NCBI GenBank assembly: GCA_903875465.1
Contig: CAIQWB010000087.1
Span: forward strand, 1-40,665
DNA: 40,665 nucleotides
Direction: 5' to 3'
Origin: an uncultured Verrucomicrobia subdivision 3 bacterium
GTDB taxonomy: Bacteria > Verrucomicrobiota > Verrucomicrobiia > Limisphaerales > UBA11358
The position numbers were made by a program, and so were the translations under genes. Positions within the stretch are counted from its first letter, which is position 1, and every line of letters begins with the position of its first letter. Of this stretch, positions 1,269-17,643 are shown one piece after another. The notes beneath the pieces are model-generated. The model saw nothing but the letters and a program-made list of their open reading frames with translations. It did no database searches and was not told the DNA's origin.

Positions 1269-3515
1269 ATGAGCCAACATGAGTCAGAAGCCGATGCGCG
1301 GATTGTGATCGACACAATGCTGCGGCAGGCTGGGTGGGACCCGGCGGACAAGTCGCAAGTCCGCACGGAGGTCACCGTCACGGAAAATCTGGCGATGCAC
1401 GACCGGCCGGCGGGCGTGGTGAACCAGGACGAAGAGGGCGCCAAGCGGACGGATTACATTCTGTTGGGAAGCAATGGGCGACCGCTGGCGGTGACGGAAG
1501 CCAAGCGCAAACGCATTGACCCCTATTCCGCGAAACAGCAAACCATCCCAATGGCCAAGTGGATTGGCGCACCCTTTATTTTTCTGTGCAACGGCGAAAT
1601 GATTTACTTTTGGGATTATGAAAATGACGATGCCCGCATCGTCAATTCCTTCTACTCGCAACGCGACTTGGAACGGTTACTTTTCCTCCGACAGAATGCC
1701 AAGCCGCTGGCGACACTGCCTATTCCTGACAATTACGTCCGCCAAGGCGAGGCACGCATCGTGCGGCCCTATCAAAAGGACGTGATGCGGGCGATGGATC
1801 AGGCGTTTGAACTGGGCAAGCGGCGTTTCCTGTGCGAATTGCCCACCGGCACCGGGAAAACTGATGTCGTCTGCCTCGAAACCAAGCGGATGTTTCAAGC
1901 GGGCCGGGCGGAACGCCTGCTGTTTCTGGTGGATCGCGAGCAACTGGCGGAACAGGCCATCGCCGCGCTGCAAGACTTGGGCGCGGAATACAGCAGCTAT
2001 TGGCTCAAACCCGGCATGGCCATCCAGCACAAACAAATCACGGTTTGCCTGCTCCAGACGATGATTGGCCGGTTCCATGAATTTACCAGCGGCTATTTCG
2101 ACGTGGTGATTGCCGACGAATGTCACCGTTCCATCTACGGCGCTTGGCAGGCGGCGCTGACGCATTTTGATGCGTTCCATATCGGCCTGACGGCGACGCC
2201 GGCGGCCTACATTGACCGCAACACTTTTTCATTCTACCAGTGCAAGGACGGCAAACCAGATTTCAGCTACTCCATCACCACCGCATTTCAGGAAAAGCAT
2301 CTGGTGCCTTATAAATTTGCCACTCGTATCACGCAGCTCATCGCGCAGGGCACGCAAGTGAACGGGGAAACTTACGACCCGGTGGAATTTGAGCGGACTT
2401 GGACGAACGAGGATTCAAACCGCAAGATGATGCAGGAGTTCGACCGGCTGGCCTGGGAGAATTACAAGGAACTTGCACCGAAACAAAAAGACGGGCCGGG
2501 CAAGGCGGTGGTGTTCGCCCTGTCGAAGCATCACGCGACGCGGCTGTGCTATTACCTCAACCAGCTTCACCCGGAACATGATGGACGTTATGCCGAAGTG
2601 ATCACCTCGGACATTGCCGATGCACCGGGCGCAATCCGGCGGTTCAAAAAGGATATTTATCCGATGGTGGCCGTGAGCGTGGATATGCTGACGACGGGAT
2701 TTGACTGCCGGGAAATTTTGCACATTGTTTTGTGCCGGAAAATTTTCAGCCCGATTCTTTACCAGCAGATTCGCGGGCGCGGCACGCGCACGGCCCCGCA
2801 CATCGGCAAAAAGCGGTTTGTCATCTACGATTTTTTCCGCAACCACGAGTATTTCAACGACAGCGAGACGGACATTTTTGAAGGTCAGGGCGGTTCCGGC
2901 GGCGGTGGTGGCACCAAGCCTGGGCCGGGGGGCACGCGCGGCGAACTGATTGAACTCGGCATCCAAGACGATTGGCTGGAAGCCTTGGCTTATGTGGAAG
3001 TCGGGCCGGAAGGCGAGCGCGTGGACAAGAAAGTTTATGTCAGCAATTGGGAAGACGCCATCAAGGCGGCGGCGAAAGACGACCCGCTTATTCAGAAAAT
3101 CAAGGATGGCATCCCGCTGACCGAACTCGAAGAACACAATCTGGCCAACGAGCTGAACAAGCCGGAAAATTATTTCAACGAAGACAATCTGCGGCTGGCC
3201 TACCGGCGGGCGGCGGGCAACATCGTGGAATTCATCCGCCACGCGTTGGGGCTGGAAAAGCTCAAGACCAAGGAAGATGAAATCGGCGAAAACTTCCATG
3301 CCTGGCTGGTCACGAAAAACGTGTCGCCGGAGCAGGCGCAATATCTGGATTTGATCAAAAACCGTGGCGTGGCGAAGGGTGAAGTGCGGCTGGAAGACCT
3401 GTTTGAACCGCCGCTGTCCATCCTCAACGCCGCCGACGTCGGCATTGAATTGTTCGGCGAAGAAGGTCTGCAAACCATCATCGCGGACATGAACGAAGCT
3501 CTTTTTGCCCCTTAA
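1269..3515 (+). CDS. hsdR: type I restriction enzyme, R (endonuclease/translocase) subunit
   Basis: This is the motor and nuclease subunit of a type I restriction-modification complex, which translocates and cuts unmodified DNA. An N-terminal PD-(D/E)xK nuclease is visible as D62 and E77-A-K79. The SF2 helicase core has Walker A GTGKT ending at residue 198, the DECH box at 283-286, the TAT motif at 308-310, and a later QIRGRGTR motif VI. A glycine-rich linker (about residues 540-555) separates the motor from a C-terminal EcoEI-type domain that contacts the methylase. At 748 residues it is shorter than EcoKI HsdR but normal for the EcoEI-like group. It is the first gene of a five-gene operon, 3 bp before hsdM. 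The ATG at 1269 is the first in-frame start; its ribosome-binding site is weak. Confidence 0.96.
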   Translation: MSQHESEADARIVIDTMLRQAGWDPADKSQVRTEVTVTENLAMHDRPAGVVNQDEEGAKRTDYILLGSNGRPLAVTEAKRKRIDPYSAKQQTIPMAKWIGAPFIFLCNGEMIYFWDYENDDARIVNSFYSQRDLERLLFLRQNAKPLATLPIPDNYVRQGEARIVRPYQKDVMRAMDQAFELGKRRFLCELPTGTGKTDVVCLETKRMFQAGRAERLLFLVDREQLAEQAIAALQDLGAEYSSYWLKPGMAIQHKQITVCLLQTMIGRFHEFTSGYFDVVIADECHRSIYGAWQAALTHFDAFHIGLTATPAAYIDRNTFSFYQCKDGKPDFSYSITTAFQEKHLVPYKFATRITQLIAQGTQVNGETYDPVEFERTWTNEDSNRKMMQEFDRLAWENYKELAPKQKDGPGKAVVFALSKHHATRLCYYLNQLHPEHDGRYAEVITSDIADAPGAIRRFKKDIYPMVAVSVDMLTTGFDCREILHIVLCRKIFSPILYQQIRGRGTRTAPHIGKKRFVIYDFFRNHEYFNDSETDIFEGQGGSGGGGGTKPGPGGTRGELIELGIQDDWLEALAYVEVGPEGERVDKKVYVSNWEDAIKAAAKDDPLIQKIKDGIPLTELEEHNLANELNKPENYFNEDNLRLAYRRAAGNIVEFIRHALGLEKLKTKEDEIGENFHAWLVTKNVSPEQAQYLDLIKNRGVAKGEVRLEDLFEPPLSILNAADVGIELFGEEGLQTIIADMNEALFAP

Positions 3516-3518
3516 AAA

Positions 3519-5207
3519 ATGAACCAAGAAATTCGCAGCAAGTTAGATCGCATTTGCAACGTGCTTTATGCCGGCGGCCTCGCGGTGCCGACATTGTTCG
3601 TCGAGCAAATCTCGTATCTGATTTACCTCAAGCTGCTGGACGAGCGGGAAAACGAACTGGAAACCAAAGCCCGGCTGCTCAAAAACAATAACGGCAACGA
3701 CAAGTCGCTGTTCCCCGACCAGGCCGCACGCTACCGCTGGAGCAACTGGCGGTTCAAGAGCGGCAAGGAACTGCGCGATTTCCTGCGCGACCAGGTGTTT
3801 CCCTACATGGCCTCGCTGCTCAAGGAGCAGCCGCAAGTTGCGATTTATTTCCAAGACGCGCGGATGGAAATTGACGACGCACACGTCTTGAAGGAGGCCA
3901 TTGATATTCTGGACGGGTTCCATTTCGCCAAGCTCGGGCCGGACGTGAAGGGCGACATTTTTGAATACCTGCTGCAATACCTCGCCAAGCAGCCGCAGTC
4001 TGATATGGGGCAGTTCCGCACGCCGCGCCAAATCCGCGTCGCGATGGTAGAAATGGTGGACCCGGATTTTGGCGACACGATTTATGATCCGGCCTGCGGC
4101 ACGGCGGGCATGTTGATTGACGCGCTGGAACACCTGCTGGCGAAGTATTCCACCACGCCGCGCGAAGTGCCGATTTATGGCGACGAATGGCTCGACGACA
4201 AGGGACTGACGCTGGCACAGGCAAAAAAGCAAATTCCGAACTTGCAAACCTACCGCAAAGGCGCGGGCGAAAAGATTCCCGATTGGGCAGTGCTGGAACA
4301 TTCTATTTACGGCATCGAGGTTTCGCGGCAAATGATGCGGATTTCCATGATGAATCTGGTGCTGCATGGCATCCGCAACGCCCATGTAAAGCGCGCCAAC
4401 GCGCTGTCTGAACTCGGCGGCTTGAGCGATGACGACCTGAACCGGAAATACAAGGTCATCCTGTCCAACCCGCCGTTTGCCGGGATGCTGCCGACGGATT
4501 CCATCCGCAAGGATTTGCCGACGCAATCCAAGAAAAGCGAACTGCTCTTTTTGGGGCTGATGATGGATGCGCTGGCACCGGGCGGACGCTGCGCGGTGAT
4601 TGTGCCGGAAGGCGCATTGTTCGGCTCGACCAGCGCACACGTTGAATTGCGGCAAAAGCTGGTTGAAGATTACGAATTGCTGGCGGTGATTTCTTTGCCG
4701 GCGGGCGTGTTCAAACCTTACGCGGGTGTGAAAACCAGCATTTTGGTTTTCCGCAAGCCGGGGGAATACGCCAGAGCAGAAAATAAAAAGCAGAAAGTCG
4801 AAAAGAAGGACGGGCGCAAGGTCTGGTTCTACGAACTCAAGAACGACGGCTATGATACCGACAAAATCTCCGGCGGTGGGCGACCGGAAACGCCAAATCA
4901 GAATGAAATCCCAGAAATGTTGCGCCAGTGGAAATACTTCAAGGAATCTGGCTTCAAGACGCCGCCGGGAACGGAAGCTGGCGCAGTGCTGCCTCCGGGC
5001 ACCGAAGAGGCTAAATGCTGGTGGGCAAAAGTCAGCACCATTGCAGAGAGTGATTACAACCTAGGCGCAGGACGCTACAAGCCGCAAGTTGGTGAAAAAC
5101 CGCCGGAGGAAGATGCCGTGGAACTCATCGGCAAGACTCTCAAGCTGGAGCGAGACATTGCAGACGGATTGGAAGAACTTTTGAAAGAATTGGAGGCGGT
5201 GAAATGA
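3519..5207 (+). CDS. hsdM: type I restriction-modification, M (methyltransferase) subunit
   Basis: HsdM transfers a methyl group from S-adenosylmethionine to adenine at the site chosen by HsdS and forms the core of the complex. Residues 1-135 form the N-terminal HsdM helical domain. The GQFRTPR stretch at 164-170 is family-typical. The SAM-binding motif I is DPACGTAG at 190-197, and the catalytic N6-adenine motif IV is NPPF at 317-320. The length of 562 residues is usual. It starts 3 bp after hsdR stops, and its stop codon overlaps the hsdS start (ATGA), indicating translational coupling of M and S, which are needed in fixed stoichiometry. Nothing suggests damage. Confidence 0.97.
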   Translation: MNQEIRSKLDRICNVLYAGGLAVPTLFVEQISYLIYLKLLDERENELETKARLLKNNNGNDKSLFPDQAARYRWSNWRFKSGKELRDFLRDQVFPYMASLLKEQPQVAIYFQDARMEIDDAHVLKEAIDILDGFHFAKLGPDVKGDIFEYLLQYLAKQPQSDMGQFRTPRQIRVAMVEMVDPDFGDTIYDPACGTAGMLIDALEHLLAKYSTTPREVPIYGDEWLDDKGLTLAQAKKQIPNLQTYRKGAGEKIPDWAVLEHSIYGIEVSRQMMRISMMNLVLHGIRNAHVKRANALSELGGLSDDDLNRKYKVILSNPPFAGMLPTDSIRKDLPTQSKKSELLFLGLMMDALAPGGRCAVIVPEGALFGSTSAHVELRQKLVEDYELLAVISLPAGVFKPYAGVKTSILVFRKPGEYARAENKKQKVEKKDGRKVWFYELKNDGYDTDKISGGGRPETPNQNEIPEMLRQWKYFKESGFKTPPGTEAGAVLPPGTEEAKCWWAKVSTIAESDYNLGAGRYKPQVGEKPPEEDAVELIGKTLKLERDIADGLEELLKELEAVK

Positions 5208-6337
5208 AATGGCCTGATGCAGAGCTTTTGGCCATCTGCAAACCAAAACAGTGGCCGACAATTTCTGGTAAAGACCTTACCGAGTCAGGTTTTCCTGTAT
5301 ACGGAGCAAATGGCAGAATTGGGTTTTACGATTCTTATAATCACGAGCACCCAACGATTTTGATTACTTGTAGGGGCGCAACTTGTGGCACACTCAACAT
5401 TTGCTCGCCTAAAAGTTACGTTACGGGGAATGCGATGTCGCTCGACGAACCAGATGTCGATCTGGTTGAAATGAAATTTCTCTATTTCGCTCTTCTGGCT
5501 CGTGGATTGAAAGACACAATCACAGGCGCGGCACAACCACAGATTACACGGGCTAACTTAACCAAAGTTAAAGTTCCCCTTCCTGCGCGCAAGGAGCAAC
5601 GGCGAATAGTCGAGTTATTGGATCAAGCGGATGATCTGCGACGACAGCGTGCCGACGCGGACAAATTGGCAGACAAAATCCTGCCCGCGCTTTTCCACAA
5701 AATGTTTGGCGACCCATTGACGAATCCGAAAGGTTGGCCCGTTAAATCATTGGGTGAAATCGCCAAATTGGAATGGGGAAATACGTCAATTACTAAAGCC
5801 AGTTATACTGAAAATGGATTTACGGCCTTTAGTGCTACTGGCCCTGATGGATTTCTGCCTTCCTTTGAATACGAAGGCGATGGAATTGTTGTCTCAGCCA
5901 TCGGAGCGCGTTGTGGCAAATGTTTCCTTGCTTCCGGTAAGTGGACTGCGATCAAGAATACTCTTACAATTTTGTCACGCGATCTCGCGCGGCTTAATCT
6001 CCGTTATCTATTTGCCATCATCGACAATGAAATGTTCTGGCAAAAAAGAGGTGGCGGGCAGCCATTTATCGCCTTGGGTTCTGCACGCGCTCAAGTTGTT
6101 CCTTTGCCTCCAATCGAACTGCAAAACGAATTTGCTGATAAGGCCAGCAACTACCTGAAAATCTACGACTGCCAAAAGCAATCATCCGAGGAAATAGAAA
6201 AACTTTTCAAAGTTTTTCTCCATCGCGCGTTCACCGGCGAGTTGACGGCGAAGTGGCGCGAGGCGCACCTGAAAGAATTGCTGGTGGAAATGGAGCATCA
6301 GGCCAAACTGCTCCGCACCGCTGCCAATAATAACTAG
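5204..6337 (+). CDS. hsdS: type I restriction-modification, S (specificity) subunit
   Basis: HsdS recognises the bipartite DNA target and positions the M and R subunits. The 377-residue protein shows the two-fold pattern of the family. A first target-recognition domain covers about residues 1-130 (TISGKDL...YGANGRIG, then GAAQPQITRANL). A central helical spacer follows around 135-175, and a second recognition domain (GEIAKLEWGN...GGGQPFIALGS) covers about 180-315, with a C-terminal helical region. It overlaps hsdM by 4 bp. Both recognition domains look AT-richer than the flanking genes, as is common for exchangeable hsdS segments. No inverted partial hsdS copies, which would indicate phase-variable shuffling, are visible nearby. 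The target sequence cannot be predicted from sequence alone. Confidence 0.95.
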   Translation: MKWPDAELLAICKPKQWPTISGKDLTESGFPVYGANGRIGFYDSYNHEHPTILITCRGATCGTLNICSPKSYVTGNAMSLDEPDVDLVEMKFLYFALLARGLKDTITGAAQPQITRANLTKVKVPLPARKEQRRIVELLDQADDLRRQRADADKLADKILPALFHKMFGDPLTNPKGWPVKSLGEIAKLEWGNTSITKASYTENGFTAFSATGPDGFLPSFEYEGDGIVVSAIGARCGKCFLASGKWTAIKNTLTILSRDLARLNLRYLFAIIDNEMFWQKRGGGQPFIALGSARAQVVPLPPIELQNEFADKASNYLKIYDCQKQSSEEIEKLFKVFLHRAFTGELTAKWREAHLKELLVEMEHQAKLLRTAANNN

Positions 6338-6349
6338 CCAACCAAGCTT

Positions 6350-8182
6350 ATGCCTCTCCGCATTTACGACATTTCCAAGAAACTTGGAATTGAAAACAGG
6401 CAGGTTCTTGCAAAGGCCAAAGAACTAGGCATCGCCGCGGCAAAAGTGCCGTCATCGACTCTGGATAAAATCAGCGCAGAATGGCTGGAGGAGGAAATTG
6501 TCAAATCAATGGCGGCCGCGTTTCAAAGGGGTTTTCGCGGGCTTTCGCTTGGGAATTTCAAGGCGTTCGCCGAAACGCAAAATGTTCCCATCAAGCCGCT
6601 GACGCTGATCTTTGGGGCCAACAGTTCCGGTAAGTCGAGCGTATTGCATGGACTGCTGCTGGCGTGTGAAGCTGCCAAGACACGCAAGCTGGACATCTCG
6701 CATCCGACTATCGGAGGCAAGGCGGTTGATTTGGGTGGCTTCCGGCAATACATCCACCGGAGGGACGTGGGAAGGCGGGTAGAATGGGGGGCGGAATTGG
6801 ATGTGCAATCCATCAGCCGCCCGGCTTATCAATGGCTGGAAAACCATAAGCGTGTGAGAGTATCGCTCACCTTTGGCGTCCCGCAAGATGACCACGGCAG
6901 TCCAATCAAGGGCCGGAATCCATGGCTAATTTCTTACCTGATTGAAAGCGACGGTGTGGAAATAGTCCGCATGAGCCGGCGGCTGGATGGCTCGATGCAC
7001 GTTGACCGAGTGGAATCGAAGATTTTGGAGAAGTTGATCCATGCCGTGATTGCGAATAATACGACTGCGTCCGGCGTGGCCGTAGACGACGATTTTCAAA
7101 GGATTAAAAAAGCTGTTGATGACCTTGTTGGTGACCTTCGATTTGTCGCCCCCGGTTTGCTGCCAGAGAAACTTTTGGGCGAATATCTCAGTCAATCATT
7201 CATTCCTGTAGCGATGGCGCAACGTGTTGAACAACTCATCAATGCCGCACGACTATTCATCCCTAAGGCGGTGGCTGATTTGGTTCTGGGTGTCAACAGT
7301 GCATTGGAGAAACAATTGGACCGGGTTCGCTACCTTGGGCCGCTGCGTTCGTTTCCTCGCCGCCATTTAGCTTTCGGCGATGATCATGACGGCAACTGGC
7401 TTGCCGGTGGCGGCTATGCATGGGACGTGGTTCGGACAAATGCAAAAGTCAGGGAATCGGTGAACGTCTGGCTGGGTGCTGATGCGCTGCAAACTAAATA
7501 CCAATTAAAAATCCGGCCGCTCACGCCTATGGACGAACTCGAGAAACGGCTGGCCGACGCAATTGAGGGATTGCCGATTGAAGAGATTGCGGAAGGTCAT
7601 GCGCCCAGTGGCCATCCACATGATGACGGCGAGATGCCTACTTACGGTATCAAGGATCCATCGAAAGAGGCGGCACAGATTCTGCGGGAAATTCACGAGA
7701 GCATAGGCGAACAGTATGACGAGCTAGTGCTGATGGATATGCGGAGCGGAACGCCGGTGACGCATCGGGATGTAGGCATCGGCATTAGCCAAGTTCTGCC
7801 AGTGCTGGTTCACGCCTACGCTGACGACTCAAAAATCATTGCGATCGAGCAGCCGGAAATCCACCTGCACCCGGCGCTGCAAGCAGAATTGGGAGACCTA
7901 TTTATCGAATCGGCACTTGGTGATCGCAAAAACACTTTCCTGCTCGAAACTCACAGCGAGCACTTGATTCTTCGCATCATGCGCCGCATCCGCGAGACGC
8001 ACTTAAAAACCTTGCCTGCTGGGAAAACACCAGTCAATGCGAATGACGTTTCCATTCTGTTTGTTGAACCGGACGGGTCCCAAAGCCTGGTTCGGCAAAT
8101 GCCGCTGAATGTTATTGGCGAACTCATTAAAAGCTGGCCAGGCGGATTTTTCGAGGAGGGTTACAAGGAGATGTTTCATTGA
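6350..8182 (+). CDS. AAA ATPase (OLD-like, DUF3696-type) with an IF-2 N-terminal-like domain
   Basis: Residues 1-50 (RIYDISKKLGIENRQVLAKA, then KELGIAAAKVPSSTLDKISA) match the pattern of the IF2_N domain of translation initiation factor IF-2. The rest is an ABC/OLD-like ATPase: Walker A GANSSGKSS at 89-97, a long helical insertion, a signature-like region (DVGIGISQVLPVL), Walker B IIAIEQPEIHLHP, and an H-loop (LLETHSEHLI). The C-terminus (VEPDGSQS...SWPGGFFEEGYKEMF) resembles DUF3696. No nuclease or TOPRIM domain is fused, unlike true OLD proteins. The gene lies 12 bp after hsdS and 3 bp before the PLD-like gene, so it is probably in the same operon. I infer a sensor or regulator of an anti-phage effector. 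The IF2_N-like part suggests contact with nucleic acid or the translation machinery; this is untested. Confidence 0.85.
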   Translation: MPLRIYDISKKLGIENRQVLAKAKELGIAAAKVPSSTLDKISAEWLEEEIVKSMAAAFQRGFRGLSLGNFKAFAETQNVPIKPLTLIFGANSSGKSSVLHGLLLACEAAKTRKLDISHPTIGGKAVDLGGFRQYIHRRDVGRRVEWGAELDVQSISRPAYQWLENHKRVRVSLTFGVPQDDHGSPIKGRNPWLISYLIESDGVEIVRMSRRLDGSMHVDRVESKILEKLIHAVIANNTTASGVAVDDDFQRIKKAVDDLVGDLRFVAPGLLPEKLLGEYLSQSFIPVAMAQRVEQLINAARLFIPKAVADLVLGVNSALEKQLDRVRYLGPLRSFPRRHLAFGDDHDGNWLAGGGYAWDVVRTNAKVRESVNVWLGADALQTKYQLKIRPLTPMDELEKRLADAIEGLPIEEIAEGHAPSGHPHDDGEMPTYGIKDPSKEAAQILREIHESIGEQYDELVLMDMRSGTPVTHRDVGIGISQVLPVLVHAYADDSKIIAIEQPEIHLHPALQAELGDLFIESALGDRKNTFLLETHSEHLILRIMRRIRETHLKTLPAGKTPVNANDVSILFVEPDGSQSLVRQMPLNVIGELIKSWPGGFFEEGYKEMFH

Positions 8183-8185
8183 GCT

Positions 8186-9115
8186 ATGCTTTCTCAATTT
8201 GCTATTGTTCCCAGGGCATTCAGTCCAGCCCACGCCACCAGTCCAAATGCCTTGGATTCCGGGATTGGCTCGCTCAATGACTTGTGCCGGGCCGAAGGAT
8301 TGTTCCTAGACTTACGAAATGGCGGATGGTCGGCATTCCTAAGCAGCTTGAACGACCGCGGCAAGGCATTCCTCAGCTTCGCAAAGAAACGAAACCGGAT
8401 TATTACTGTTGAGGGCAAACTAAAAACGGATCCGAACGAAGACGACGAATGGCTATGGGAAGCGCAGGCGATCAATGACAAGGGACGTTGTCGGGCCATC
8501 GTAGCCGACGACCAAATGGCAGGTGAAAATGGACACGATGCCTCCATTACCTCCATTGAGCGGTTAAACACAACCGCATGGTGGGAGAACCGTTCTCATT
8601 CCGAGGAAATCTCACGGACAACGAAAAATTATCTGGAAACGCTCTGGCCGCTCCTGAAACAGGCGCGGCTGCTGATGTTCGTTGACCCATACATTGATCC
8701 GGCTGCTGAGAATTATGAGGAATTTCCGCAAATCCTTCTATCCTCCGGCAGCAAAGAACTACGGCCGCTGATTCAAATCCACCGGGCGAGCTGGAGACGC
8801 GATACCGCCGGCAAATTAGTGACGCAAGGGCTAGGGGCTTGGAACGCCGATTTCGCGGCATGGAGCAATCAATTGGAGGCGGCGGGAATTACCTGTGAGG
8901 TCTATATTTGGCCGGACGTGCATGACCGTTTTCTGGTTACGGACATCATCAGCATCAACCTCCCGAACGGTTTTGACATCGCAAAAAGGGCGCACGCGCC
9001 AACGCGCTGGACGCGTCTGACGCAACAGGATCAGGAGCGATTACAAAAAGAATATGACCCAAGTTGCCGGATGCACGGCTCTGCGGGTTGTTTTGTCATT
9101 GGGAAAACCCCTTAG
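8186..9115 (+). CDS. PLD-like protein, candidate effector partner of the upstream ATPase
   Basis: I do not recognise this 309-residue protein as a named family. It carries VHDRFLVTD near the C-terminus (H246, R248, D253), which fits HxK(x)4D of phospholipase-D-superfamily enzymes with Arg replacing Lys. An earlier segment, RLLMFVDPYIDPAAENY (about 161-177), resembles the strand and acidic loop preceding a PLD-like active site. The N-terminal half (residues 1-130) has no recognisable domain. There is no signal peptide or membrane segment, so it should be cytoplasmic. It starts 3 bp after the ATPase gene, implying co-translation and a functional pair. A single PLD motif would require dimerisation for activity; the Arg could also mean a binding rather than catalytic role. 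Confidence 0.7.
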   Translation: MLSQFAIVPRAFSPAHATSPNALDSGIGSLNDLCRAEGLFLDLRNGGWSAFLSSLNDRGKAFLSFAKKRNRIITVEGKLKTDPNEDDEWLWEAQAINDKGRCRAIVADDQMAGENGHDASITSIERLNTTAWWENRSHSEEISRTTKNYLETLWPLLKQARLLMFVDPYIDPAAENYEEFPQILLSSGSKELRPLIQIHRASWRRDTAGKLVTQGLGAWNADFAAWSNQLEAAGITCEVYIWPDVHDRFLVTDIISINLPNGFDIAKRAHAPTRWTRLTQQDQERLQKEYDPSCRMHGSAGCFVIGKTP

Positions 9116-9197
9116 TCGCTCATGCAATGCTGGCATAGCTGCGGCTGTTCCCGGTCCATGCAACTGCGCTAAGAGAAATGGTTGATCCGGCTGGGCC

Positions 9198-9237
9198 GGC
9201 CTCGGCGCAGCCCCCTGGGGATGGAGGGGGCGAGGCC
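9198..9237. other. hairpin downstream of the defence operon
   Basis: The arms GGCCTCG (9198-9204) and CGAGGCC (9231-9237) are exact complements, with a second inner pairing between CCCCCT and AGGGGG. It lies 83 bp beyond the stop codon of the PLD-like gene, so it could end the operon transcript. No run of T follows on either strand, so a simple intrinsic terminator is not supported. It may instead be the first stem of the structured region. Confidence 0.45.
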
Positions 9238-9414
9238 ACAGCGTGGCTGGCGTTTTGGGGTTGGCGGGGGTTCCGGGGCCTTCCACGCCATATATTATAA
9301 AAGGCGGCAGCGGGCGGCTGGCGTGCGGGATGCCTGCAAACTGGCGCGGGGCCTGCCCCGCCCGAGCGCGAGGGGCGGGTTCGCAGGCTCCGTGACAGCG
9401 CGGCAGCGGGTCTG

Positions 9415-9542
9415 GGCATATCAGCACTTTGTGCAACATTTATCCAGCGCCGAAGGGTCCCGCGGGCGGGGAGTTGTCGGCGCGATTCGGATAAATGTGG
9501 AAGCGAGGCACGAGCGACCGAATGCACAAAGTGTGATATGCC
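9415..9542. repeat. nested inverted repeat, three coaxial stems
   Basis: The outer arms are at 9415-9434 (GGCATATCAGCACTTTGTGC) and 9524-9542, complementary except for one extra G on the left. The middle arms ACATTTATCC (9436-9445) and GGATAAATGT (9489-9498) are exact. The inner arms GCGCCGA (9447-9453) and TCGGCGC (9477-9483) are exact. The left arms are nearly continuous, while the right side has a 25-nt bulge (9499-9523) between outer and middle stems. This is far beyond chance pairing and suggests a structured RNA or a DNA hairpin used by a recombinase. Confidence 0.75.
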
Positions 9543-9659
9543 AGGACCCGGTAGCAAGGCCGGTGCCCAGACGCGCAGCTTGCGAGCATCGTAGCACCGG
9601 CCGGTCCCGCATGACAGTCGCCCGCAGAGCCATAGTTTAGCTGGCGTGAAGGGCTCGTG

Positions 9660-9905
9660 GGCACAGTCGCATTTGCGCGAAGCCCCCTCTCCTGACTCTC
9701 CAAGCATCTGGCGGAGCGCCGGGGCGGCGGGAGCAAGGGCGGCAGGGTGCTCCCGGACGCCTGGCGCGCAGACTGATGGATGGAGGGTCAGGCCGATATG
9801 GTTTTGGGAGTGAGGCCGGCCGGTTTTCGCGGAGGGTCGAGGCGCTTCTGGCCGAGCCCGCAGCGAAAATGGCTGTGCTCACGACCGGGAGAGCGCGCGT
9901 TTTCA
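9660..9905 (+). repeat. diverged direct repeat, copy A
   Basis: Shared blocks with copy B appear in the same order: GCGCGAAGCCC, CTGACTCTCC, GGCGGAG followed by GGGGCGGCGG, an AGGGTGC block, a GGAGGGTC block, TCGAGGCGCTTCTGGCC, a GAGCCC block, and CGACCGGG. The offset between copies drifts from 473 bp (at CTGACT, 9692) to 488 bp (at TCGAGG), so small insertions and deletions have accumulated. No protein reading is conserved in both copies over any useful length, which argues for a non-coding element. Confidence 0.6.
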
Positions 9906-10134
9906 CCCTGTCTCGGCGGCTTGGCGATCCGTCGGAGCGGAATGGAACGATCGCGTAGGTGCGAGCCGCACCGGCGACCACCGGAGCGTTAGTGGAATGG
10001 AGTGGAGCGGTCGGCAAGGTGGCGAGTCAGGCCGCGCGCTCAGCCGAACGGTGCCGATTTTGGGGGCGGAGGGGCCGGCGCAGTGAGGCGGGTGTTTTGC
10101 CGCACGGGTTACAAAGTGCGGCTGTCCCAGCGAG

Positions 10135-10390
10135 GCGCAGTCGCGGGAGCGCGAAGCCCGTGCGCTGACTCTCCGAACCGTCGGCGGAGTGCTGGGGCGG
10201 CGGTGCCAGGGTGCATGGGGCATCCGGCCGCCCAGGCACGCAGTCGTCGGGGCGGAGGGTCTGCCTGCTTTCGGTCCTTGCGGACGGCGTTTAAGGGAGC
10301 GTGTGCCGCCGGCTTTGCGCAGGATCGAGGCGCTTCTGGCCCGAGCCCGGAGCAAAACGGACGGCTCTCGCGACCGGGGTTGCTGGCGGT
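10135..10390 (+). repeat. diverged direct repeat, copy B
   Basis: This is the second copy of the module described for copy A, with the same ordered blocks, including CTGACTCTCC near 10165 and TCGAGGCGCTTCTGGCC near 10325. It continues into a hairpin-rich stretch (about 10390-10480) where GGCGTTAGCC and neighbouring G/C arms can pair. Both copies have the same orientation. Confidence 0.6.
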
Positions 10391-10860
10391 ACGGTCCACC
10401 CGGGTGAATGGCCGGGTGCATTAGCGCCCGGTTGCCTAAACGAAGGCGTTAGCCTGAGCAGGTATTGCCTGGCCTCGCGCGGGTGAGCTGTACGACCACC
10501 CCAACCGCCGAAATGGAAGCTGGATATCGAAACTGAGAATGACGTGATGATCCCGCGCGACGGCAAGCGTGCCCGCGCCGAGAATGACTTTCGATCACCG
10601 GTGATGGCGCGGGCTGAGCGCGTTAGCGCGAAAGCGACAGGCACGCGCGGGGTGAGGGATGTCCCTGCTAAAATGGACGCCGGAAGGTGCGCGTTCGTGG
10701 GTTTTGAGCGTAGCGAAGTAGCATAATGTACCAGAATGCAAATAGCCGATAGTTCGCCTGAAGCCATGGTCTGCCGGTAATCACCGGTAACGAAGGTCCG
10801 GCAGCGATGGCCAAGACAAGGCAAAACCGGGATGGTGGTAAGCATTCCAGTTCGTTGACC

Positions 10861-10884
10861 CCTCGAAAAAGCATGCTTTTACCG
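10861..10884. repeat. imperfect GCATGC-centred palindrome, inverted relative of 186-209
   Basis: The core AAAAGCATGCTTTT is a perfect 14-bp palindrome. Read on the minus strand, the unit and its following GGGTCAAC flank resemble the unit at 186-209 and its GGTCAA flank. The two copies therefore stand in opposite orientation on either side of the LysR-hsd-ATPase island. A minus-strand open frame of 140 codons crosses this copy and shares the peptide KSMLF..VN with the frame at the left edge, simply because the repeat is translated in the same phase. Confidence 0.6.
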
Positions 10885-11190: not shown

Positions 11191-11212
11191 TGCAGGGGGT
11201 AAACCCCCTGCA
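11191..11212. repeat. perfect 9-bp-stem hairpin
   Basis: TGCAGGGGG and CCCCCTGCA pair exactly around a TAAA loop. It sits 4 bp before the first of two 56-bp direct repeats that lead into a small HTH gene. It could be an operator, a terminator or a recombination site; the sequence does not decide between them. There is no T-run. Confidence 0.55.
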
Positions 11213-11216
11213 GCCG

Positions 11217-11272
11217 GTCGCTATGACCCATTTTCCAACATCGTTTCGGTTTCCTAAATGATATACTATGAA
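11217..11272 (+). repeat. 56-bp direct repeat, copy 1, with promoter-like -10
   Basis: It matches copy 2 (11340-11395) at 47 of 56 positions, starting GTCGCTATG and ending ATGAA. The 18-base core CAACATCGTTTCGGTTTC is identical. A -10-like TATACT lies at 11262-11267, but no good -35 was found at standard spacing. Each copy ends with a stop codon (TGA) and, a few bases later, the ATG of the next small frame, so the repeats could also be read as coding 3' ends. Likely a duplicated regulatory segment ahead of the element's HTH gene. Confidence 0.6.
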
Positions 11273-11384
11273 CGATCCCGCAACGCTGGAGGCCCGCCAC
11301 CGGGCCGGCGTCTGCTACGGCGGCAGGCCCCTCCTTTCTGTCGCTATGCGTCAATTTACAACATCGTTTCGGTTTCGTAATTGA
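11268..11384 (+). CDS. possible 38-codon ORF between the direct repeats
   Basis: The ATG sits at the end of repeat copy 1 and the TGA inside copy 2, six bases before the ATG of the HTH gene. The peptide starts MNDPATLEARHRAGVCYGG and ends TTSFRFRN. A frame ending in copy 1 finishes with the similar peptide PTSFRFPK, so the repeat keeps the same reading phase. No domain is recognisable. It may be a short leader-type ORF or no gene at all. Confidence 0.25.
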   Translation: MNDPATLEARHRAGVCYGGRPLLSVAMRQFTTSFRFRN

Positions 11385-11395
11385 TACACAATGAA
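11340..11395 (+). repeat. 56-bp direct repeat, copy 2
   Basis: This is the second copy of the repeat described at 11217-11272, offset by 123 bp. Its last five bases are the start of the HTH gene (ATG at 11391), so whatever the repeat does is placed directly at that gene's translation start. The AT-rich TTGATACACA here replaces the better TATACT of copy 1. Confidence 0.6.
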
Positions 11396-12012: not shown

Positions 12013-12107
12013 GGGTTCATGGTTCCCGCCTACATATAGGCGGGTGAACCCATGACCCTAACCGGGTTCAATGAACCCAATTTGAACCCAATTTGAACCC
12101 TGAACCT
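12013..12107. repeat. TGAACCC iteron cluster, candidate replication origin
   Basis: The heptamer TGAACCC occurs six times exactly: inverted at 12013-12019 and 12064-12070, direct at 12045-12051, 12072-12078, 12083-12089 and 12094-12100. A seventh near-copy, TGAACCT, ends at 12107 and touches the helicase stop codon. The first two flank a perfect CCCGCCT/AGGCGGG stem, giving a two-part hairpin. The second pair forms the palindrome GGGTTCAATGAACCC, and the last two sit in tandem 11-bp units AATTTGAACCC. Spaced repeats beside a replication helicase are typical of iteron origins. A terminator or regulator-binding cluster is the alternative. Confidence 0.55.
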
Positions 12108-13515
12108 ATTTCTTTGTAAGTGCATATATTCCAGTGAGTTCCTTGGTGATAACGCCAGCTCTGAGCATTTGACCCAAACGGCGCATTGCGGTGGATTTTG
12201 AGACGTGAACCTCGTTTTCCAGAAATGTGATAAAATCCCGGTAGCAAATGGCAGCTTTTCGGGCGGCGGTGAATACCGCTTCGGCCTCGGTTTGCAGGCC
12301 TTGAATTGCGTCCATCTCCCGTGAACTTTGGCGGCTTTCGATGCTGATGTGCATCCCGGAGGGTTCGCACCATGCAAAACGGGGACCGGTGCTTTTTGGG
12401 ATGGGTGCCCGGCGGTTTTTATCGGCCCATATGACAGTGACGCCTTGGTCGTCTTTTTCCAACCGCAGGTTCGTCTCTGATTTGCGCTCCAGTTGGGAGC
12501 CAAGATGGCCGCGCGTTTTGGATTCGCTGCCGGGGTTCACATGGATGATGTTCAGAATTGGACAAGCGAACTCAATCGCCAGTCGATGAAGCTCGGCCAC
12601 AAATTCTCCCGCCTCGGCTGGATCGTTTACATCATGGGCGGCGTCGGCGATGCCATCAATGAAAATGGAATGGATCCCTCCGAATTCCCGGGCCGCCTGC
12701 TCCAGCACGATACGGATCGCGCTACGCACGTCGGCGGCGTTAAAACCTGTCAGGCAGTAGGACTTTAACCACGCGGGCACACGCTCGGCCCCGGCCCGGC
12801 GCCTGGCCTGCTCAATGACATTCCAATGGTCAAACGGTGCCTGCTCGGTGTCCAGGTCCACCACGGCATAGCCGTGGGGGTTTTGTGACTGGAAGCCGAG
12901 GCAGTCCGTGCTGGGGCCGGCAAAGGTGGCGGCCATCATGGCGCTTTTGGCGGCGGATTTGCCGGCCTTGGCCTGGGCGGAAATGGTGGTGAGGTTGGCC
13001 GGGGTGCAAATTCCGACCGGTCCGATGAAATAGCGCGGTTCTGGCTCCTGCGGTCTGACGATCGGTGAATAGAGCCGGGCGGCCAGGCGTTCAACGAGGG
13101 GATTCGCCTCGCTGGCAATGTGGTTGAGCGCGGAATGCGCGGCGGCAATGAGGGCCTTGGCTTTTTCTGGCGTGGACTCCAGGCCTCTAACCAAGCTCTC
13201 CCCGATGCCGGCGGCCCGGCGGATTTCGTAGGCCTGCCAAATATCTGGAGCGTAATGCTCGGCGGCCTCGGGCGACATCGGCTCGGATAGCTCGGCAACG
13301 ATGAAATTCAAAAACTGCGGGCAATTTCCACCCACGGTGGCCAAATTGACTGGCTCACGGGCGGCGCGCATGGCGCGCACAGCGGCGGCAACCTGGCCGG
13401 CGCGAGCGTCGTCGAAGGATTCCGGCGCGTGTTGGATCAGCCGGGCGATGAAGGGCGGCAGCGGGCCATTGTCGGCGTCAATCGCGGCGGCGAGCATGGA
13501 AAATTCAGTGGGCAT
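12106..13515 (-). CDS. RecA-like replicative helicase (RepA/AAA_25-type) of the element
   Basis: The 469-residue protein probably unwinds DNA for element replication. Residues 1-135 are helical and resemble a DnaB N-terminal domain. Walker A is AQAKAGKSA (180-188, with K186 and S187). Walker B lies in GGIHSIFIDGIADAA, and the following IIHVNPGSESKTRGHLGSQLERKSE section is typical of RepA/AAA_25 helicases. The last 70 residues form a winged-helix-like segment (FITFLENEVHVSKSTAMRRL). It is the most downstream minus-strand gene of the element, 21 bp after the preceding gene, and ends at the TGAACCC repeats. A DNA-repair RecA-like role is less likely given the context. Confidence 0.75.
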   Translation of the reverse strand: MPTEFSMLAAAIDADNGPLPPFIARLIQHAPESFDDARAGQVAAAVRAMRAAREPVNLATVGGNCPQFLNFIVAELSEPMSPEAAEHYAPDIWQAYEIRRAAGIGESLVRGLESTPEKAKALIAAAHSALNHIASEANPLVERLAARLYSPIVRPQEPEPRYFIGPVGICTPANLTTISAQAKAGKSAAKSAMMAATFAGPSTDCLGFQSQNPHGYAVVDLDTEQAPFDHWNVIEQARRRAGAERVPAWLKSYCLTGFNAADVRSAIRIVLEQAAREFGGIHSIFIDGIADAAHDVNDPAEAGEFVAELHRLAIEFACPILNIIHVNPGSESKTRGHLGSQLERKSETNLRLEKDDQGVTVIWADKNRRAPIPKSTGPRFAWCEPSGMHISIESRQSSREMDAIQGLQTEAEAVFTAARKAAICYRDFITFLENEVHVSKSTAMRRLGQMLRAGVITKELTGIYALTKK

Positions 13516-16225: not shown

Positions 16226-17506
16226 TTATGAATCTTCGAATGTCATTTGTTGTCCGTGGGGGTTCGGTTGAATCGCAAACCACTCTGCCGCGGCTGCCGG
16301 CCGCATCCGCTTCAAATAATTTGTGCGGATGACTTGGGGGCTGTTGCCGGCCTCATCCGCCACGCGGGGAATGTCCCCCAACTCGGCCACCCGGGCGGAA
16401 ATGTAGGTGTGCCGCAATGCGTTGTGTTTCCATTCCAGCGCCTCGATGGCTTCCTTGGGCTTGCCCGTAGCCGCTGCGGTGCGCAATAGCTGCTTGGTGG
16501 TATTTACCAGGGTGATGACCGGACCGCTTTCCTTGGCCAAAGGCTTTAAAAACGCCTTCAGGTTGTCGTGCATGGGCACAATGCGCCGGGTGTCGGTCTT
16601 GGCATTGCTCGCCTTCACCTCAATGAATCCCTCGGACAGGTCAATATCCTGCCAATCCAGCCGGGTAATCTCGGCATGGCGCAGGCCGGCAAACCCGCCA
16701 ATGAGGATCAGGGGCAGGATCCGCTCGTCAGCGGCAGCAATCAGCCGCCGCATTTCCTCGGGTGTGTAGGTGGAAATTTCCCCGAGCTTGCGGGCGCTGT
16801 AATTCTGAACCCCTTCCAGCCAGTCGGTGCCCTTGGCCAGGTAACCCCGGAGCACCAGCCACCGGTTGAAAAATCCAATCACGTCCCGGTGGTTGCGGCG
16901 GGTACGTTCGGCCAGGGGCAAGGCGGTCAGATGGTCGGCCACCATCTTGGGAGTGAGCGCCTGGACATCCACCTTGAATACTTCGGCAAAGCGGTCGAGG
17001 ACATTGGCCAGTTGCTTGCGGCGCAAGTCGGATTTGCCGTCCGACTCGGCCTGCTTCGTCAATAGCGCGACGGCGTCCAGCACGGTAATGCGAGGCAACT
17101 CAATATTGTGTTTCTCCAGCCAGTAGCGGATGGCCTCCTGAGGGGTCGCCCTGCCCCGCAGCGCCCGGATGGCGTCGGCCCCAATGCGGACGACTTCATC
17201 TATCGCCAAATCTATCTTCGTCTCACCTTCGCTGCCGGTCAGGATGGCGCGGGCGCGGATAACGGAATGAGCGTCGGCGGATTTGAGGTTGAGGACTTCG
17301 GCTTGGCCCTCGGTGATTTTATCAATGGCATCATTGGCGGCATCCCGTGCGTCGGCCATGGAGGAGCGCCAAACGAGCTTGCGCTGGCCCTGCACACGGT
17401 AATCGAGCACAAAATAGTCGGTGCCGTTCTTCTTGGTGGGGCGAATGCGAACGGAAACGCCGTTGCGTTTGATTTCCTTAACTTCGTTAGATGCATCGTC
17501 TTTCAT
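16226..17506 (-). CDS. tyrosine recombinase / integrase
   Basis: This site-specific recombinase inserts and excises the element. The 426-residue protein has an N-terminal arm-binding region, a SAM-like core-binding domain (about residues 140-235) and a C-terminal catalytic domain. R276 lies in GGFAGLRHAEITRLDW, the box II H361 and R365 in HNALRHTYIS, and the nucleophile Y397 in SPQVIRTNYLKRM. The position usually occupied by the third His/Trp reads GNSP instead of GHSS-type, a modest deviation. Transcription points away from the tRNA-Pro gene 61 bp away, the standard layout for a tRNA-targeting integrase. Short repeats of GATAG in the AT-rich gap to the tRNA may be arm-type binding sites. Confidence 0.93.
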   Translation of the reverse strand: MKDDASNEVKEIKRNGVSVRIRPTKKNGTDYFVLDYRVQGQRKLVWRSSMADARDAANDAIDKITEGQAEVLNLKSADAHSVIRARAILTGSEGETKIDLAIDEVVRIGADAIRALRGRATPQEAIRYWLEKHNIELPRITVLDAVALLTKQAESDGKSDLRRKQLANVLDRFAEVFKVDVQALTPKMVADHLTALPLAERTRRNHRDVIGFFNRWLVLRGYLAKGTDWLEGVQNYSARKLGEISTYTPEEMRRLIAAADERILPLILIGGFAGLRHAEITRLDWQDIDLSEGFIEVKASNAKTDTRRIVPMHDNLKAFLKPLAKESGPVITLVNTTKQLLRTAAATGKPKEAIEALEWKHNALRHTYISARVAELGDIPRVADEAGNSPQVIRTNYLKRMRPAAAAEWFAIQPNPHGQQMTFEDS

Positions 17507-17566
17507 CTATTAACATGATAGATAAAAGATAGAAATAGTCAAGAACTATCGAAAACCCTTTAAAAA

Positions 17567-17643
17567 TGGTCGGGGCGGTGAGATTCGAACTCACGACCTC
17601 TTGTACCCGAAACAAGCGCGCTACCAGGCTACGCTACGCCCCG
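17567..17643 (-). tRNA. tRNA-Pro (anticodon CGG)
   Basis: The 77-nt gene includes an encoded CCA end. The acceptor stem CGGGGCG pairs with CGCCCCG. The anticodon stem CTTGT/ACAAG encloses the loop TTCGGGT, giving anticodon CGG, which reads the proline codon CCG. The T-arm contains the usual GTTCGAATC. All arms are intact, so insertion of the adjacent element has restored the gene, as expected for integrases using the 3' half of a tRNA. Confidence 0.95.

Follow-up and report, generated by a model that had tools for sequence, protein, structure and literature searches.

A conserved element of about 1.4 kb in a Verrucomicrobia subdivision 3 island is probably a large structured phage RNA

The window, by which we mean the whole stretch of DNA analysed here, is contig C87 (40,665 bases) of a MAG with a 5.3 Mb assembly in 153 contigs, 96% complete. 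It holds an integrase-bearing island linked to a tRNA-Pro gene (Table 1), in agreement with the mobile-element neighbourhood that a sequence-only reading of this DNA had noticed. The cargo of the island includes type I restriction genes and an AAA ATPase; the protein encoded next to this ATPase could be its partner in a two-gene defence system. Positions 17562-17592 of the window are identical to 31 nt elsewhere (G000:C7:2093-2123), corresponding to the 3' end of tRNA-Pro and representing a candidate second attachment site. The ends of contig C7 and of the window do not overlap by 10 bases or more, and searches for att sites in genomes G036 and G043 found nothing convincing. The palindrome AAAAAGCATGCTTTT was observed at 187-208 and 10859-10884, at both ends of the sequenced part of the island, and at L098:61-96, with variants on contig C7. 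A direct repeat of 68 nt (11205-11272 and 11328-11395, 79% identical) ends in ATGAA in each copy, the second of which precedes a possible small helix-turn-helix gene recognised by eye.

Table 1. Features of the island and parts of the conserved element, in window coordinates
Feature	Position	Strand	Remarks
HsdR, type I restriction subunit, island cargo	1269..3515	+	
HsdM	3519..5207	+	
HsdS	5204..6337	+	
AAA ATPase, similar to defence-system ATPases, island cargo	6350..8182	+	
309-aa protein, stops just ahead of the block	8186..9115	+	No match in Pfam, NCBIfam or PADLOC
Predicted large structured RNA element (family core)	9286..10740	+	nhmmer family matches, alignments, covariation, z-score
5' domain, most conserved sequence of the family	9309..9625	+	Long-range closing helix; pair 9327/9608 covaries (E ~1e-4)
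Nested three-stem structure	9411..9546	+	Covarying pairs 9411/9546, 9428/9530, 9433/9525, 9436/9498, 9438/9496, 9441/9493
Module copy 1, counterpart in homologues	9660..9890	+	Module comparison
Long helix domain, strongest covariation of the element	9698..9785	+	11 significant pairs
Helix	9811..9881	+	Covarying pairs 9811/9881, 9812/9880, 9813/9879, 9816/9876
Helical domain	9909..10029	+	Pair 9909/10029 covaries
Module copy 2, internal duplication	10134..10380	+	Missing from nearest homologue L022
3' domain, two helices	10472..10611	+	Covarying pairs 10472/10564, 10474/10562, 10475/10561, 10574/10611, 10575/10610
AAA_25 ATPase	12106..13515	-	Weak DnaB/primase-helicase PHROG matches
Tyrosine integrase	16226..17506	-	76% identical to integrase of phage contig L077
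tRNA-Pro (cgg), at which the island presumably integrated	17567..17643	-	31-nt copy of 3' end at G000:C7:2093-2123

The block downstream of the defence cargo represents a family of conserved non-coding elements, ~1.4 kb in size. The sequence-only reading had placed a gene-free structured block at 9116-10500; a conserved element does lie there, but by homology it starts ~170 nt later and ends ~240 nt further on. Homology to the nearest relative (L022) begins at 9194, and an alignment of 26 loci contained a single conserved unit at ~9290-10735. The G+C content of the element is 63-70%, compared with ~54-56% in its flanks. ORFs overlapping the block were 96-195 aa long (threshold 80 aa), and the largest, at 9120-9707 on the minus strand and the only ORF of the block to be scanned, had no NCBIfam match. 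Among element copies with more than 75% identity, multiples of three made up 200 of 1037 short indels, versus 175 of 197 in portal genes and 74 of 132 in terminase genes (pairs more than 65% alike). Indels that are mostly not in threes, along with the unmatched largest ORF, rule out a protein gene, show that the element is non-coding, and bear out the earlier impression that no credible gene was present.

Structure was evaluated by folding and by covariation. The minimum free energy of 9286-10740 had a z-score of -6.9 on the plus strand and -5.5 on the minus strand against 24 dinucleotide shuffles, while the coding controls reached -1.4 (terminase), -1.6 (portal), and -1.1 (hsdM), which confirms the dense, strong structure described previously. 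Covariation was tested with our own script instead of R-scape, using a G-test with average-product correction against a Fitch-type tree null. In a first alignment, which kept 32 of 39 copies after seven short ones were dropped (mean identity 61%), RNAalifold predicted 292 pairs, of which 36 covaried at E up to 0.05; each of 11 null alignments folded in the same way had 0. A second alignment kept 49 of 67 copies, dropping those with 900 or fewer model positions, and here 57 of 300 predicted pairs covaried significantly, while ten tree-based nulls yielded 0 pairs in seven cases, 1 in two, and 2 in one. The consensus energy of the 49 copies was -429 kcal/mol, compared with -192 to -223 kcal/mol in the nulls. 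The structure was derived from the same alignment that was tested, and circularity was guarded against by running the nulls through the whole procedure. A structure-free test, which has little power, found significance (E up to 0.05) for 2 pairs among 821,121, and those ranked next included some that do not form base pairs. The significant pairs span at least nine helices between 9327 and 10611, and the window copy forms 205 of the 300 consensus pairs, with 42 broken and 53 gapped. These results show that base-paired structure is conserved through compensatory change. Covariation among homologues had been named as a check on a candidate long non-coding RNA, and the candidate came through it.

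The internal features seen previously were also recovered. The nested three-stem structure, with arms at ~9411-9441 and 9493-9546, was aligned in 44 of the 49 copies and covaries, and the domain at 9698-9785 (aligned in 48 of 49) has double changes at 21 of its 22 predicted pairs. The two diverged module copies are 70% identical and have 24 folded pairs in common, 18 of them unchanged, 1 changed on one side, and 5 changed on both sides; module 2 is a duplication of the helices at 9660-9890. In several relatives the 3' domain is duplicated downstream, and the RNA is modular in this sense. Such extra copies were found at L034:8211-8461, L045:2712-2995, L052:7232-7777, and L054:1861-2379, ~0.6-2.2 kb downstream of the main element and sometimes past an ORF.

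We compared the two strands to establish how the element is read. The reverse strand folds nearly as well, with 54 of 284 pairs significant and a consensus energy of -386 versus -429 on the plus strand. Across the 53 significant pairs shared by both folds, 62 cells were G-T and 41 were A-C, with more G-T in 23 pairs and more A-C in 15. The G-T excess and the better plus-strand fold modestly support an RNA read from the plus strand. Because the reverse strand folds nearly equally, the choice of strand, and of RNA over single-stranded DNA, draws on this modest excess and on synteny. Promoter and terminator scans found little or nothing above chance.

We searched 49 genomes of the genus at the DNA level, including the window's own, and 30 of them matched with E up to 0.01. 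In the best homologue, G043:C8 (L022), identity was 79% across 9194-10138 and 81% across 10410-10717. The longer copies of the element were mostly 1.3-1.9 kb. A profile HMM recognised the element in each of 66 loci, a set that had been collected by similarity to it. For wider searches we built a covariance model, R1, of the 5' domain from window positions 9309-9415 together with 26 homologues; 5 of 32 copies were too short to be used. In the host's order, R1 matched 39 of 320 genomes, spread over 17 of 118 genera, with several matches weak, down to E 0.0065; in a sample of the class it matched 12 of 384 genomes, all 12 belonging to the same order. Since R1 covers only the 5' domain, its absence from a genome is weak evidence. 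Six IMG/VR contigs carried the element, and no plasmid or INPHARED phage DNA matched it. The contigs of many MAGs were observed to stop inside or beside the element (L032, L028, L151-L154, L157, and others); short-read assemblies are therefore likely to under-represent the family.

Rfam returned nothing for the element across the window, nor for 9100-10800 at E up to 1, nor at the gathering score in five further element loci. A known RNA family is ruled out by these absent matches, GOLLD and ROOL included, and no group I or II intron was matched. A dispersed repeat within the window's own genome was also rejected, as the DNA search and R1 located no second copy there. We found no description of such an RNA in the open-licence papers searched.

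The neighbours of the element point to phages. Its conserved neighbours were assigned by PHROGs as TerS, TerL, portal, scaffold, and major head protein (6299, 979, 145, 206, and 247, respectively). A terminase large subunit gene, a portal gene, or both lay nearby in 39 of the 66 loci, in all 39 on the strand of the element. Wherever each gene was nearby, terminase was upstream (30 of 30) and portal downstream (26 of 26), and in 17 of the 66 loci both flanked the element, always on one strand. The spacing was 115 to 3691 nt to terminase and 121 to 3388 nt to portal, with other ORFs inside the longer spacings. Because strand and order are constant in these 39 loci, we regard the element as a phage RNA of the packaging and head region. 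In the single-contig genome G091 (L136), the genes for TerS, TerL, portal, scaffold, and head protein stand in order around a copy that was recognised in its 5' part only (model 14-558). The other 27 loci had neither gene as an ORF of more than 500 nt. In two of them, L027 and L037, a short piece of a terminase gene is still present upstream, on the strand of the element, which indicates decayed prophages. L037, L042, L130, and others of the 27 are located among chromosomal genes, and these copies may be remnants.

We also started from portal genes, choosing 40 stretches from the places found by a portal query. In 20 of these the element lies upstream and on the same strand as portal, or in 16 of 36 when four stretches already matched by R1 are left out. 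The other 20 had no recognisable element, and many of these hold little upstream DNA. One of them, L172 (G142), has a terminase-portal gap of 1146 nt from which the element is absent; the lineage can therefore manage without the RNA, and the element is not a universal marker of the lineage. By motif, 14 of the 20 negative stretches, L172 included, gave two chance-like matches only, and R1, run on 20 stretches, matched clearly in L188 and L160 alone, both known positives, and weakly in L164, L176, and L170. Divergence of the element was correlated with that of portal (Mantel r 0.41, p 0.0005, 22 loci), TerL (0.27, p 0.004, 21 loci), and MCP (0.47, p 0.025, 12 loci), reflecting co-inheritance of the element and the phage genes with some exchange. 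The element thus belongs to a phage lineage, with a fixed place and strand in the informative loci.

The window copy has a different setting. In the phage contig L077, integrase, AAA_25, terminase, element, and portal are all on a single strand, whereas in the window the element is oriented opposite to the integrase. No portal, TerL, or MCP of the phage family was found in the window's genome, a MAG; in the same search the portal query was positive in 47 of 320 genomes, while the TerL and MCP searches included no positive control. The sequenced part of the island has an integrase and an AAA_25 ATPase, as a satellite would be expected to have, and no capsid or terminase gene of the phage family was found in it. 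The 26 kb contig G043:C8 (L022) similarly has an integrase, an inverted element, and HmaA/DrmD-like helicase and methylase cargo, and none of its ORFs resembles terminase or portal from the phages used for comparison. In L030/L082 (G036:C32), a related integrase is found at tRNA-Pro (cgg) with the element on its strand, and terminase and portal were not found in the 13 kb of L030. The element thus also occurs in islands that yielded no capsid gene. From their gene content we read these three as satellite-like elements, which would presumably depend on a helper.

Bacteria and phages have, to our knowledge, few described RNA families longer than 500 nt. GOLLD is often near tRNA islands, whereas a tRNA was near the element in none of the 10 element-bearing phage loci scanned. 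As described in PMC12286853, GOLLD is a large ornate RNA of phages and prophages with many members over 800 nucleotides, and ROOL a large phage and prophage RNA of complex structure (659 nt in ROOL env-120), the function of both being open. The element resembles these descriptions in being large, complex, and encoded in phages and prophages. It differs from GOLLD in its size of ~1.4 kb and its place between terminase and portal, and from ROOL in being larger than env-120 and having other genomic neighbours. Because Rfam gave no match to either, the element appears to be of the GOLLD and ROOL kind but not a member, so the comparison made in the sequence-only reading holds for kind and fails for family. 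While these two seem the closest in kind, the closest biological parallel may be phage ICP1 with its PLE satellites, each of which makes highly abundant ORF-less transcripts, that of ICP1 being ~800 bp (PMC7567579). There, phage and satellite transcripts are treated separately, whereas here one RNA family is predicted both in phages and in islands with no known capsid genes; the parallel is one of description.

Taken together, we consider it probable that the block encodes a free-standing, large (~1.4 kb) structured RNA of temperate Verrucomicrobia subdivision 3 phages, likely acting in trans. Located between the terminase large subunit and portal genes and on their strand, the phage element would be made along with the late packaging and head genes. 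The RNA would most likely act in trans as an abundant late RNA during assembly or lysis, possibly as a self-assembling particle by analogy with GOLLD and ROOL, which form homo-oligomeric RNA cages. The window copy would then sit in an integrative, satellite-like island that has no known capsid genes and carries type I restriction. Its retention in an island where no terminase, portal, or capsid gene was found alongside suggests that the RNA may be useful in itself to an element using the phage's particles.

A direct role in packaging, in which the RNA works with the terminase/portal motor or marks DNA for packaging, seems to us unlikely but worth weighing. The phi29 pRNA, ~174 nt long, acts with such a motor; there the tie to packaging is by function, here it is by gene neighbourhood, and the two RNAs differ in size, position, structure, and the absence of an Rfam match for the element. 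A packaging role would explain why the RNA is retained both in phages and in islands where terminase, portal, and capsid genes were not found, and it fits the constant strand and the position between the two genes in the 17 two-gene loci. The far larger size of the element, its absence between the terminase and portal of L172, and its variable spacing to both genes speak against such a role. We give rather little credence to a giant cis-acting leader or attenuator of the portal and head operon: portal does follow on the same strand in every portal locus, with the closest five 121-175 nt away, but the distance often exceeds 1 kb with intervening ORFs on either strand, and the element also occurs in islands that lack a portal gene.

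A structured single-stranded DNA site, such as an origin or a packaging site, is about as improbable as a leader. Good folds and similar covariation on both strands are what it would predict; against it are the excess of G-T over A-C, the better plus-strand energy and z-scores, and an architecture of more than 1.3 kb, which would exceed the needs of known origins. The sequence-only reading had offered accumulation of a repeat family as its alternative, and we consider it very improbable that a MITE, a REP-like repeat, or a decayed intron spread through insertion. Some genomes have multiple copies (seven R1 matches in G033), two copies in G031 (L037 and L042, one truncated) are ~93% identical over ~0.5 kb in dissimilar chromosomal surroundings, and some copies are found amid chromosomal genes. 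However, position and strand are constant in all informative loci, whereas accumulated repeats would be scattered over unrelated sites, the terminase fragments of L037 and L027 indicate decayed prophages, the window's own genome has no other copy, Rfam matched no intron, and covariation runs along the whole length of the element.

As a more tentative proposal, which we rate as possible rather than probable, the element may be among the largest structured phage RNAs, of a family distinct from GOLLD and ROOL, made with packaging genes and exploited by defence-carrying satellites of the same phages, perhaps as an RNA particle or a packaging cofactor that helper and satellite share. A larger, separate RNA family that keeps one position next to packaging genes, and that has copies in satellite-like islands and, partly recognised, in the single-contig genome G091, would provide a handle on the function of giant phage RNAs.
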